A stretch of 64,000 nt of DNA from NCBI RefSeq assembly GCF_015644665.1, contig NZ_JADOBQ010000001.1, forward strand, positions 1,054,001 through 1,118,000. The letters are read 5' to 3'. The position numbers and the translations under genes are program-made. Of this stretch, positions 57,640 through 64,000 are shown in pieces. This stretch comes from Roseobacter sp. MH60115 (lineage in GTDB: Bacteria; Pseudomonadota; Alphaproteobacteria; Rhodobacterales; Rhodobacteraceae). Each line of letters opens with the position of its first letter. Positions within the stretch are counted from its first letter, which is position 1. The notes beneath the pieces are model-generated. The model was not told where the DNA came from. It did no database searches and saw nothing but the letters and a program-made list of their open reading frames with translations.

Positions 57640-58406
57640 ATGCACGCGGCAGCACCGGCACCGAAAACGCACTGGAATTGCGCGGTGTGTCGAAACGCTT
57701 CGGCGCGCTGGCCGCGCTCAGCGATATCGAGCTGACCGTGCGGCCGGGTGAGCGGCGCGCGGTGCTCGGCTCCAACGGGGCGGGCAAGACCACGCTCTTC
57801 AACTGCATCACTGGTGATTTTCCACCTTCCGAAGGCTCGATCCGGTTCTTTGGCGAAGACATCACCGCCTTTCCCGCGCAGGAGCGTATCCGCCGGGGGC
57901 TGCGGCGCACCTATCAGATCTCGTTGCTCTTCTCGGGGCTGACGGTGATCGACAATGTCTATCTGGCCTGCCTCGGGGTCTCTCGCGGGCGGTTCTCCTT
58001 TCTACGTGCGCGCCGGGACGACGCGCTTGTCGCCTCCGCCGAGGAGCTGACCCGGATGGTCAACCTCTGGGATGCCCGCGACACCATGGTCAGCGATCTC
58101 AGCTACGGCCAGCAGCGCCAGCTGGAGATCGCGATGGCGCTGTCGGGCGCGCCGCGCTTCATCCTCTTTGACGAACCCGCCGCCGGGCTTAGCCCGACGG
58201 AGCGGCGCGAGCTCATCACCATCCTCAACGGGCTGCCCGACCACATGGGCTACATCATCATCGAGCATGACATGGACGTCGCCCTCCGCGTCTCCGAATA
58301 CGTATCGATGATGCACAACGGGCGCATCTTCAAGGAGGGCAAACCGGCGGAGATCGAGGACGACCCGGAAGTGCAGGCGCTCTATCTCGGGGGGGACGCG
58401 GCATGA
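57636..58406 (+). CDS. ABC ATPase, LivG type
   Basis: The 256-residue ATPase has Walker [10 protein letters not shown] (about 45-53), a signature replaced by [12 protein letters not shown] as is usual in LivG proteins, Walker [14 protein letters not shown], and the H-loop in [10 protein letters not shown]. It couples ATP hydrolysis to import through the two permeases. Start and stop overlap neighbours as ATGA, a sign of tight coupling with the next ATPase gene. Confidence 0.93.
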
Positions 58407-61411: not shown

Positions 61412-64000
61412 CCGGTCAACTCATTGGGCAACTCATCCTGTGGCTGATCCTCGCGGTCATCGTCATCTTCATCCTCTACTGGGTGATGCACTGGCTTTAC
61501 CGTCGCTCCACCAAGGAAGTGGCCTTCGTGCGGACCGGGTTTCTAGGCGAACGGGTGGTGATCGACGGCGGTGCCTTCGTCTGGCCGATCATCCACGACA
61601 TCACGCCGGTGAACATGAATTCGCTCGATCTGGGGGTGACACGGGCACGCGAAGAGGCGCTGATCACCGGCGACAATCTGCGCGTGGACGTGGATGCGGA
61701 GTTCTACGTGCGGGTGCGCGGGACCAAAGAGGCGGTGAGCCTGGCCGCGTCGACCATGGGGCGCAGGACGCTGGAGCCGGAACGGCTGCACCGGCTGCTG
61801 TCGGGCAAATTCATCTCGGCCCTGCGCACGGTAGCGGCGGAAATGACCCTTGAAGAGCTGCACACCCAGCGCAAAGAGGTCACCGCCCGGGTGGCGGAAC
61901 TGGCACAGGAGGGGCTCGACAAGAACGGGTTGGAGCTGGAAAGCGTCGCGATCACGGATATCGACCAGACCGATCTGCAGTATTTCAACCCCTCCAACCG
62001 CTTCGACGCCATCGGCCTGACCTCCGTGATCGAGCAGGTCGAGGCACGGCGCAAGCTGCGCAATGACATCGAGCAGGATGCAATGATCCAGATCCGGACC
62101 CGCAATCTGCAGGCGGAGAAGGAAACACTGGCGATTGATCGGGCCTCCGAGGAGGCGCGGCTAGAGCAGGAGCGCGACATCGAGTTTCGGCGCGCCCAGC
62201 AGCGGGCCGAACTGGCGCGCGAACGCTCGGAACGGGAAAAAGAGGGCGAGGAGGCGACGCTGATCAGCAAGGAGGCCATCGAGACCGCGCGGATCACCAA
62301 TGAGGAAAGGGTCGCCGAGGCGCGCATCGCCTCGGAGCGCAAGATCCGCCAGCAGGAGATCGAGCGCCAGAAGGTCATCGACGAGGCCGAGATTGCCACG
62401 CGCGAAGCGGTGGAGAAGGCACGGATCACCCAGGAAAAATCTCTGACCGAAACCCGGATCAAAACCGACAAGGACACGCAAGCGGCGGAGATTTCCGCCA
62501 AGGAAGCCATCGAGAAAGCCCGCATTGCGCAGGATCGGACCTTGACCGAAGCGCGCATCGAGAAGGATCGCGAGACGCAGGCGCGCGAGATCGACCGCAA
62601 GCGCCAGATCGAGGAGGCGGATATTGCCGCCAAGGAGGTCATTGAAAAGGCCCGCATCGCGCAGGAACGCGAGGTGACGGAGGCCCGGATTGCATTGGAG
62701 CGCACGACTCGGGAGCAGGAGATCGCGCGCAATCTCGCGGTGGATGAGGCAACAATTGCCGCGCAGGAGGCTGCGGAAAAGCTGCGCATCACGCAGGAGA
62801 CCACGATCAACGCCGAACGCATCGCCTCCAGCAAGGCGACCCGCGCGCTGGAGATCGAACGGCAGAAGGCGCTGGAAGAGGCCGAGATCGCCTCGCAGCA
62901 AGCCACCGAAGCGGCCCGCATTGCACGTGAAAAGGCGCTGGCGGCGGAACGGATCGCTGCCGAACAGGACACCCGGGCGCGGGAGATCGAACGTCAGCGC
63001 GAGCTTGACGCACAGCAGATCGACGCCGCCGAGCAAACCTCGCGTGAGCGGATTGCGCAGGAGGAGCGGGTACGCAGCCTCGAGATCGCGCGCAACAAGG
63101 CCATCGACGAGGCCGAGATTGCCGCGCGCGAAGCGGTGGAGGCGCAGCGGATTGCCACCGAGGCCGCGACCGAACTGCGCCGGATCGAAAGCCAGGAGAG
63201 CACGCAGGAGCGCGAAGTTGCCCGCGCCAAGGCCATCGAAAGCGCCGAGATCACCAAGGGCGAAGCCATTGAGGCCACGCGCATCGCCCGCGAAAAGAAG
63301 CTGGCCGCCGAACGGATTGCCTATGAGCAGGACCTGCGCGAGCGCGAGATCGCGCGCAACCGCGCCGTGGATGTGGCCAATGTCGGCGCGCAGGAAGAGA
63401 TCGCTCAGGCCCGCATCCAGGAAGAAAAACGCACCCGCGCCGCCGATATCGCCAAGGAGGCGGAGCTGCGGTCGCGCGAGATCGAAAAGCAGGAAGCCAT
63501 TGAGGCGGCAGAGATTTCCTCGCGCCGGCTGGTCGATCAGCAGCGCATCGAGAAGGAGGCGGAGACAACCGCGGACAAGATTGCCCGGGACGAGCGTATC
63601 CGCACGCTGGAGATCGCCCGCAACAAGGCGATGGATGCGGCACAGATTGCCGCAGATGAGGCGACGGAGGCCGCTCGCGTGGCCAAGGAGAAGACCGTCG
63701 ATGCGGAGCGGATCGCCGCCGAGCAGGAGCTCGATGCCAGAAAGCTCGAACGCAAGAAGGCGCTGGAAGCGCTGGAAATCGCCCGCGTGCAATCCCTGCG
63801 CGAGGCCGAGATCGCCAGTCAGGAAGACGTGGAGCGGGCCAAGATCGCCAGCGAACGCGGGCTGGATGACGCCCGTATCGGACACCAGACCGAACGCCGC
63901 ACCCGCGAGATCGCCCGCGAGAAGGCCGTCGAGGAGGCGGCGATGGAAAAAGCCATCGCGCTCTATCAGAAATCCCTCGATGAAAGTGCCGCAGCGGTGG
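61408..64000 (+). CDS. flotillin/SPFH-family protein with giant 11-residue-repeat stalk (partial)
   Basis: The gene starts at an ATG overlapping the previous stop and runs past the window end; 864 residues are visible. A membrane anchor (about 8-28) is followed by an SPFH/band 7 domain (about 35-235; [58 protein letters not shown]). A charged helical stalk with exact 11-residue periodicity fills the rest to residue 843. The last visible residues ([11 protein letters not shown]) break the pattern. Flotillins scaffold membrane microdomains; the ordinary ones have far shorter coiled coils (about 200 residues). It is the last visible gene of the ABC/Tm-1-like operon. Confidence 0.9.
62287..63936 (+). 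repeat. 50 tandem 33-bp units encoding 11-residue (hendecad) repeats
   Basis: Reading from residue 294 to 843 gives exactly 50 consecutive 11-residue units without any insertion or deletion. Examples are [22 protein letters not shown] and [15 protein letters not shown] units. Position 3 is Ile in 46 units, Val in three and Leu in one. Position 9 is aliphatic, Met, Ala or Thr in all but one. Position 1 is often Ala and the rest are Glu, Arg, Lys, Gln or Asp. This predicts a continuous right-handed coiled coil. Confidence 0.92.

Follow-up and report, generated by a model that had tools for sequence, protein, structure and literature searches.

An importer ATPase fused to a Tm-1-like UPF0261 domain, encoded in a conserved operon with a PF09370 barrel and a long-coil flotillin

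The fused gene and its operon

We analyzed a stretch of 64,000 nucleotides from Roseobacter sp. MH60115 (contig NZ_JADOBQ010000001.1, positions 1,054,001 to 1,118,000; hereafter the window). Near its end lies a gene in which an ATP-binding cassette (ABC) importer ATPase of the LivF type continues into a UPF0261 domain, a family whose proteins carry the NCBI name "Tm-1-like ATP-binding". The operon extends from the receptor gene at position 50500 to beyond the window, into genes for SRPBCC proteins, a molybdenum hydroxylase and hydrolases. The features on which the argument depends are as follows (window coordinates; other genes are listed at the end).

50500–51804, + strand: substrate-binding protein, the importer receptor (Peripla_BP_6, E 2e-50; model pLDDT, the per-residue model confidence, 89.7; fold neighbors)
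55560–56582, + strand: LivH-type permease (BPD_transp_2)
56584–57639, + strand: LivM-type permease (BPD_transp_2)
57636–58406, + strand: LivG-type ATPase (ABC_tran)
58403–60568, + strand: LivF-UPF0261 fusion, whole gene, 721 aa (open reading frame [ORF], Pfam and AlphaFold2 [AF2] model)
58403–59110, + strand: LivF ATPase part, residues 1–236 (ABC_tran at 20–159; 67 residues invariant in 65 fusions)
59111–59338, + strand: flexible linker, residues 237–312 (low pLDDT, low conservation)
59219–59233, + strand: linker motif P-T-R-W-T, residues 273–277 (RW in 65/65 aligned fusions)
59339–60535, + strand: UPF0261 part, both lobes, residues 313–711, proposed kinase (PF06792 and PF23189; full-length match to Tm-1 and 9MPY)
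60572–61411, + strand: PF09370 triosephosphate isomerase (TIM) barrel (PF09370, E 3e-129; Mll9387, PDB 2P10, E 8e-116)
61408–64000 (window end), + strand: flotillin (whole gene L002:12408-15614, 1068 aa)
61993–64000, running beyond the window, + strand: flotillin coil of 11-residue repeats, proline-free residues 196–961 (repeat analysis)

A preliminary description of this DNA had reported that the ATPase runs on into a UPF0261 domain, that the barrel gene starts after a gap of 3 bp, and that the flotillin gene overlaps the barrel gene by 4 bp; the ORFs and Pfam bear out all three observations, the frame of the fusion being open throughout. Besides ABC_tran, Pfam matched PF06792 at residues 316–484 (E 5e-56) and PF23189 at residues 495–710 (E 2e-91) of the fusion, and both UPF0261 lobes are complete. 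The start of the fusion gene overlaps the end of the LivG-type gene by 4 bp, and the barrel covers positions 3–267 of the 267 in PF09370. The description had placed the receptor at 50539; a receptor gene does lie there, but its ORF starts at a GTG at 50500, and 50539 is the first ATG. The HAAT gene set, consisting of a receptor, two permeases and LivG- and LivF-type ATPases, is complete in this single cluster. The LivF half of the fusion scored 216 bits against UrtE, for which the cut-off is 286, and missed the equivalog cut-offs of both LivF and UrtE. The description also held that UPF0261 and the barrel are, as a pair, physically attached to the importer; this is true of the UPF0261 half only, since each fused locus that was read encodes the barrel in an ORF of its own.

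Conservation of the gene set

We searched 246 genomes of the family and 387 of the class, both sets including the window's own genome. All UPF0261 matches whose open frame reached 700 aa or more were retrieved and read; shorter ones were only sampled. UPF0261 (PF06792) was present in 114/246 family genomes and 55/387 class genomes, and the fusion was open in 23/246 and 21/387, respectively. Reading of 80 UPF0261 loci gave 43 that were fused and 37 that were not. A flotillin gene lay downstream in 43/43 fused loci, compared with 0/37 non-fused loci in the same search, and the barrel gene was likewise present in all 43, directly next to the fusion in 42; in the remaining locus, L098, it lay a few genes upstream. 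The genes are therefore kept together across homologous loci, as the preliminary description supposed. A barrel gene accompanied UPF0261 in 22/37 non-fused loci.

A second set was made up of the 80 best among at least 582 confirmed candidates, some of these loci being the same records as in the first set. The fusion was carried by 77 of the 80. Among the fused loci of this set, flotillin was found in 67/67 with at least 1.8 kb of downstream DNA, the barrel in 71/71 with at least 0.9 kb, and an SRPBCC gene in 62/62 with at least 5.5 kb. Judged by record titles, the set included Rhodobacterales, many Bradyrhizobium, Azospirillum, one metagenome-assembled genome (MAG) of Geminicoccaceae, and a few MAGs labeled Gammaproteobacteria, Granulosicoccus or Immundisolibacterales. 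Because the same fusion is open in the family and class genomes counted above and in 77/80 of the best loci, it is not an assembly or frameshift artefact, a possibility that the preliminary description had allowed for. In a phylum sample of 397 genomes, UPF0261 frames of 740–825 aa occurred within the class only. A match in another class (G963:C9:100490-101014) lies in a 1127-aa frame, which may represent another kind of fusion or else a long frame that merely overlaps. UPF0261 was not found in two other genomes of the same genus (G234 and G956), and the operon is thus accessory.

All sets together contained 120 fused ORFs with 115 distinct UPF0261 sequences, and these fell largely into two types. 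Type A (71 of 115) carries a molybdenum hydroxylase module, with an AraC gene in 64/71. Type B (24 of 115) carries an SRPBCC-dehydrogenase fusion, together with an alpha/beta hydrolase (23/24), an amidohydrolase (23/24) and an FAA hydrolase (20/24), and 9/24 have a sigma-54 activator with a PF09370 domain. The remaining 20 fusions showed neither type's marker in the available stretch. Barrel, flotillin and SRPBCC genes were present in 71/71 type A and 24/24 type B loci. The fused gene set is a conserved unit in which the flotillin gene is followed by an SRPBCC gene and then by one of two enzyme modules. Several stretches end at contig ends, and some ORFs are over-long, starting upstream of the true start (e.g., L095, L110 and L111), which gave some negative gene distances.

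Sigma-54 activators with an N-terminal PF09370 barrel were seen at L107:92-1849, L089:11499-13247 (by Pfam for L089) and in other loci; in type B loci the activator has beside it an independent PF09370-like protein (about 232 aa).

A fixed motif in the linker

The linker was examined in an alignment of 65 of the 66 non-redundant fusions, L164 being left out since it is cut by its contig. The AF2 model of the fusion had a pLDDT of 88.2 and a predicted template modeling score of 0.58, with pLDDT below 50 at residues 233–259 and 294–308. A conserved segment sits between these two stretches. R275 and W276 are invariant (65/65), and P273 and T274 have frequencies of 0.95 and 0.85, which gives a (P)TRW(S) motif; the flanking linker stretches have mean majority-residue frequencies of 0.33 and 0.35 in the 65 fusions. 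The pattern [PT][TPNDS]RW[STRG] occurred in 110/120 fusions and in none of the receptors, permeases, LivG proteins, barrels, flotillins, SRPBCC proteins, CoxM and CoxL found. Outside clear fusions it matched four times: in L169, where the start of the contig truncates a fusion, in one CoxS, and in two copies of one amidohydrolase; the CoxS and the two amidohydrolase matches apparently lie in mis-started N-terminal ends. A fixed RW peptide held within an otherwise floppy linker looks like a docking site.

Origin of the fusion and its decay in one genome

A UPF0261 tree was built from 29 fused rows (thinned at 70% identity, L169 left out) and 41 unfused rows. The fused rows formed one group with two unfused loci, L150 and L221 (support of 96 in the Shimodaira-Hasegawa-like approximate likelihood ratio test). 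Such a tree needs three changes, and appears best read as one gain of the fusion with two later losses. L150 (a Granulosicoccaceae MAG) and L221 (a Pleomorphomonas MAG) both have UPF0261 and the barrel, and no LivF-like ORF or flotillin was found in their stretches. Outside the fused group, L117 and L140 carry LivH, LivM, the substrate-binding protein, LivG, LivF, UPF0261 and the barrel as separate genes, with no flotillin in the stretch, and possibly represent the state before the fusion.

One genome, G165 (locus L234), offers a natural dissection of the operon. Its cluster keeps the receptor, permeases, LivG, LivF, flotillin and SRPBCC genes. The barrel gene is not in the cluster, and PF09370 had no match anywhere in this genome, which is rated 100% complete. 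In the G165 ATPase (685 aa), none of the invariant LivF residues has been lost (67/67 kept) and the linker still has its invariant R and W, but the UPF0261 domain is degenerate, with 20/64 invariant residues kept; identity to the window protein is 184/240 in LivF and 91/344 in UPF0261. That the G165 flotillin nests inside the operon flotillins argues that this state arose by loss. UPF0261 and the barrel decayed together, while the tether, the motif and the flotillin did not, a pattern that fits two modules: UPF0261 and barrel for the chemistry, and ATPase, linker, flotillin and SRPBCC as a platform. The notion that the flotillin occurs only with an intact kinase is ruled out by this locus.

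The operon flotillin

In full length, the operon flotillin contains Band_7, a coil and Flot (PF15975) according to Pfam, and has the layout of SPFH2 flotillins: an N-terminal membrane segment (read from the sequence), an SPFH domain, a coil and a Flot domain. The coil is an 11-residue repeat with a 44-residue super-repeat, and the strongest repeat was at a multiple of 11 in 111/111 operon-type flotillins tested. The genome's canonical 569-aa flotillin also gave the 11-residue signal, weakly (0.38 vs. 1.36 for the best lag), from which it follows that such repeats are common to the family and have been extended in the operon protein. The longest proline-free run is 766 residues in the operon flotillin, compared with 268 in the canonical one. 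With a helix rise of 0.15 nm per residue, 766 residues would extend about 115 nm if all-helical and straight, which is an upper bound and not a measurement. For human flotillin, a basket 22 nm in height has been described, the helical wall of which is right-handed (PMC11260169). Trimmed at the SPFH match, the type A flotillins (74 proteins) had a median length of 975 aa and those of type B (26 proteins) one of 685 aa.

Searches led by the flotillin returned the same operons. In the 246 family genomes the 24 best matches were 23 intact fused operons and G165, and in the 387 class genomes the 21 best matches (at least 334 bits) were all in fused operons. The canonical flotillin gene adjoins a YqiJ-type gene; no NfeD/YqiJ-type gene stands beside the operon flotillin, whose neighbors are the barrel gene upstream and an SRPBCC gene downstream. 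An NfeD partner is the rule for SPFH2 genes, although SPFH2 genes without NfeD have been described as well (PMC2636767). The flotillin tree included 28 operon rows; for alignment A3, 44 of 45 rows were used, L069 being cut and left out. A score above 300 bits does not by itself identify the operon type: flotillins of 678–681 aa in L238–L241, which lie outside any fused operon, scored 308–317.

Some other flotillins deserve mention. At L239:322-10916 (G397) and L235:7270-17925 (G010), flotillins of 678–728 aa are encoded in one cluster with a rhodopsin-like gene and the genes of a ribose-type ABC importer. Flotillins similar to that of L239 are present in L238 (G543), L240 (G477) and L241 (G603), the domain scans covering L235 and L239 only. 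The gene just before the flotillin matched PF01036 in both loci (L239:8118-8807, E 3.9e-34; L235:9488-10177, E 3e-8), and for L239 the best PDB match was "flotillin-associated rhodopsin" (9R23). The rhodopsin-flotillin pair is already known; the adjoining importer may deserve attention. A 3.5-kb contig of G093 carries, at L236:61-2187, a barrel remnant or divergent barrel right before an operon-type flotillin, the SPFH part of which is sister to that of L078.

Discussion

The observations made in the preliminary description were correct, and its interpretation was right in outline, though only partly supported. It had suggested that the pair may process or sense the imported compound. Over its whole length the UPF0261 part of the fusion matched plant Tm-1 (3WRY; E 3.5e-99, 336 bits) and 9MPY (E 4.6e-61, 210 bits). 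The latter, by its PDB title as returned by Foldseek, is the structure of Saro_1862 from Novosphingobium aromaticivorans, a protein with a UPF0261 domain, in which acetovanillone is bound. MarK, described in PMC13101465 as the single-component kinase that starts acetovanillone catabolism, comes from the same species. Since a UPF0261 protein has been crystallized with acetovanillone and MarK belongs to the same species, processing by phosphorylation is now the better guess. The receptor model pointed to a similar class of compound: ranks 2–8 of its fold matches were solute-binding proteins from five PDB entries (4evq, 4ey3, 4eyg, 4f06 and 4evs), of which four are named as from R. palustris; 4- or p-hydroxybenzoate stands in the titles of three, and the remaining two titles break off ahead of or inside the ligand name. 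Taken together, this makes our best guess a kinase tethered to the importer and acting on a compound that is hydroxylated and probably aromatic.

We propose tentatively, and at somewhat less than an even chance, that the operon encodes a LivFGHMJ-type importer whose LivF bears, on a flexible linker, a UPF0261 small-molecule kinase by which the cargo is trapped, and that this importer sits on a flotillin platform of its own. The binding protein would capture a small hydroxylated, probably aromatic compound, which LivHMG and the LivF half would import. The tethered UPF0261 domain would phosphorylate the cargo as it emerges, preventing back-diffusion and providing the substrate for the next step; trapping by phosphorylation has been suggested for another phenol kinase (PMC9618137). 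The PF09370 barrel would partner the kinase, most likely acting on the phosphorylated product. The long flotillin may form a fence or basket around the importer that holds importer, kinase, SRPBCC proteins and later enzymes together, and the invariant RW motif could serve as the docking peptide, most likely for the flotillin.

Several results weigh against this proposal. No barrel was found in the stretch searched for 15/37 non-fused UPF0261 loci. L117 and L140 argue that flotillin is not needed for the pairing of importer, UPF0261 and barrel. The three changes needed by the tree mean that the strict association reflects few events and not 115 independent ones, and the operon flotillins formed no supported single clade, their tree leaving its deep forks open and giving no clean monophyly. 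The flotillin-organised site of the preliminary description has strict co-occurrence and the G165 locus in its favor, but the co-occurrence traces to few independent events. G165 is a single locus, and its genome has a second, unfused UPF0261 of a different clade on contig C13. That RW docks to flotillin is suggested by their co-occurrence, and MarK is probably, by inference, Saro_1862. The window UPF0261 is closer to Tm-1 than to 9MPY, so that the substrate, and even the reaction, may differ. The receptor's fold matches overall shared 21–27% identity with it (21–25% at ranks 2–8), and rank 1 was 4zpj, for which no ligand is named. Finally, lactonase- and gluconolactonase-like enzymes are encoded downstream and no ring-cleaving dioxygenase was recognized among the genes scanned, so a lactone or sugar acid would also fit.

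It is indeed quite possible, if doubtful, that the mechanism is otherwise unchanged and the cargo is non-aromatic (a sugar acid, lactone or nitrogen compound) that is phosphorylated on an aliphatic hydroxyl. The gluconolactonase-isochorismatase fusion and the Amidohydro_2, metallo-beta-lactamase-fold and short-chain dehydrogenase/reductase (SDR) genes downstream are in keeping with such a cargo, and several non-fused UPF0261-barrel pairs adjoin other ABC ATPases of unassigned cargo. The aromatic-acid binders among the receptor's nearest folds, the acetovanillone in 9MPY, and the molybdenum hydroxylase with its CoxE-like von Willebrand factor A (VWA) partner and SRPBCC proteins argue instead for an aromatic compound.

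We consider it unlikely that the flotillin serves a general purpose alone, for instance membrane stiffening when the substrate is hydrophobic or toxic, and has been carried along without contact with the importer. A single origin of the fusion would account for most of the co-occurrence, and flotillins are found in other importer operons with a rhodopsin-like gene. Nevertheless, the flotillin was present in every fused locus of the second set with enough downstream DNA, the genome already possesses a canonical flotillin beside its YqiJ-type partner, and G165 retained the gene after the decay of the kinase domain and barrel.

Some ABC ATPases carry regulatory C-terminal domains, and UPF0261 could be a cytoplasmic sensor that gates the ATPase. 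It would bind either the imported compound or what is made from it and throttle import, and the barrel would sense alongside it. The PF09370 family can be a sensor, since it forms the N-terminal part of sigma-54 activators, which stand beside 9/24 type B operons; the flexible tether between LivF and UPF0261 and the retention of a degenerate UPF0261 domain on the G165 ATPase are also consistent with sensing. Set against this are the link, probable by inference, between a UPF0261 protein and the acetovanillone kinase pathway, the 64 invariant UPF0261 positions, which suggest a conserved site, and the UPF0261-barrel pair of L150, in whose stretch there is no LivF- or LivG-like ORF. We regard such a sensory role as rather improbable. 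An assembly artefact or chance read-through of adjacent genes, for which nothing was found beyond the unfused neighbors in L117 and L140, is ruled out for practical purposes by 120 open fused ORFs with 115 distinct UPF0261 sequences and an invariant linker motif.

The families involved are known, but as far as we have seen there is no earlier description of their combination, of the linker motif or of a long-coil flotillin dedicated to such an operon; the searches made, in openly licensed PMC papers, turned up neither the LivF-UPF0261 fusion or operon nor any importer with a cargo kinase on its ATPase. Saro_1862/MarK resembles the UPF0261 part over the whole domain, yet is a stand-alone protein and is farther from the window protein than is Tm-1 (210 vs. 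336 bits), whereas the window's domain is fused to an importer ATPase. Plant Tm-1 has UPF0261 and PF09370 in one chain, and both halves also occur at the window locus; here LivF carries the first half and a gene of its own encodes the barrel, while plant Tm-1, as presented in PMC5028733, has no importer part. That evolutionary study proposes an interaction between the two halves of Tm-1, and the terms "ABC transporter" and "flotillin" had no occurrence in it by term search. For nucleotide binding by the N-terminal part of Tm-1, which the preliminary description stated, the NCBI name quoted above is the indication seen; "ATP" did not occur in two Tm-1 papers searched by term. The phenol kinases HpeHI, CreHI, PpsAB and AcvAB phosphorylate phenols as the first catabolic step, as is proposed here. 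HpeHI, a two-component phenol dikinase, is reported to be of the ATP-grasp/rifampin-phosphotransferase type, not UPF0261, with a swivel component bearing a phospho-histidine (PMC12167813), and its type rules out that HpeHI/AcvAB and UPF0261 are the same enzyme; no HpeHI-type ATP-grasp or swivel component was matched by Pfam in the fusion or the barrel (E ≤ 0.001).

LivFGHMJ and Urt importers share with the window the receptor, two permeases, LivG and LivF, but in the window the ATPase has a C-terminal UPF0261 domain and the operon includes a flotillin. The NfeD-partnered SPFH2 flotillins YuaG/FloT and YqiK have the same Band_7, coil and Flot arrangement; the window protein differs in having no NfeD/YqiJ neighbor, a longer proline-free run and importer genes nearby. 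The term "ABC transporter" had no occurrence in the prokaryotic SPFH operon survey (PMC2636767; term search). In flotillin-associated rhodopsin systems (PDB 9R21 and 9R23) a flotillin likewise shares an operon with a membrane protein, and in L239 and L235 a ribose-type importer is also present, but UPF0261, barrel and LivF fusion are absent. With respect to group translocation as in the phosphotransferase system (PTS), what is seen is the physical tether, and the transport-coupled chemistry is proposed.

If the proposed importer-tethered kinase is real, an ABC system would do as the PTS does, chemically altering its cargo at the point of entry, and for a flotillin there would be a definite client, together with a docking peptide open to testing. 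There is an outside chance of something categorically new. An ABC-type group translocator, in which the ATPase passes cargo to the kinase on the same chain within a flotillin basket tens of nm tall, to which an RW peptide ties the ATPase, is improbable in our judgment; were it to exist, import, phosphorylation and the first oxidation would occur inside a protein compartment on the membrane, distinct from bacterial microcompartments and more than a lipid raft. Plant Tm-1 would in that case be related to the kinase half of the pathway. The role of Tm-1 in plants besides virus resistance is an open question according to PMC5028733, and the operon gives a handle on it because Tm-1 is closer to the importer-linked UPF0261 than 9MPY is. 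A Yoonia plasmid carries a similar gene order, and there the fusion is annotated as "ABC transporter permease", so that it is easily overlooked in databases.

Other genes of the locus

The further members of the operon are listed below; those with L002 and L227 coordinates lie downstream of the window.

51839–52993, + strand: iron-alcohol-dehydrogenase-like protein, without Pfam match, differing between loci and poorly conserved (NCBIfam 4-hydroxybutyrate dehydrogenase, E 1.4e-20, below the family cut-off)
53000–54436, + strand: aldehyde dehydrogenase, an optional member (Aldedh, E 5e-160; 12/71 type A loci)
54524–55384, + strand: AraC-type regulator (HTH_18; 64/71 type A loci)
L002:15615-16052 and 16094-16540: two SRPBCC proteins
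L002:17792-19615 (MoCoBD_1) and L227:615-1646 (MoCoBD_2): molybdenum hydroxylase large subunit, two genes
L227:5362-6984: SMP-30/gluconolactonase and isochorismatase domains in one 540-aa protein

Also downstream of the window are genes for an AAA ATPase, the CoxE-like VWA protein, the Amidohydro_2 enzyme, the metallo-beta-lactamase-fold enzyme and the SDR. The two large-subunit genes (MoCoBD_1 and MoCoBD_2) abut in the window's genome, and two molybdopterin-binding genes also abut on the Yoonia plasmid (L222:22806-25690). A promoter scan gave 0 sigma-70-like sites (1.4 in shuffled sequences), and a terminator scan of both strands gave 12 terminator-like sites (6.6 in shuffles), some of them on the coding strand within the operon; we gave no weight to either scan. 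The minus strand immediately before the receptor gene encodes two kinds of small protein, ABM and NIPSNAP (48827–49512 and 49585–50274), and their genes diverge from that of an ArsR/HTH_20 regulator, also upstream of the receptor gene.

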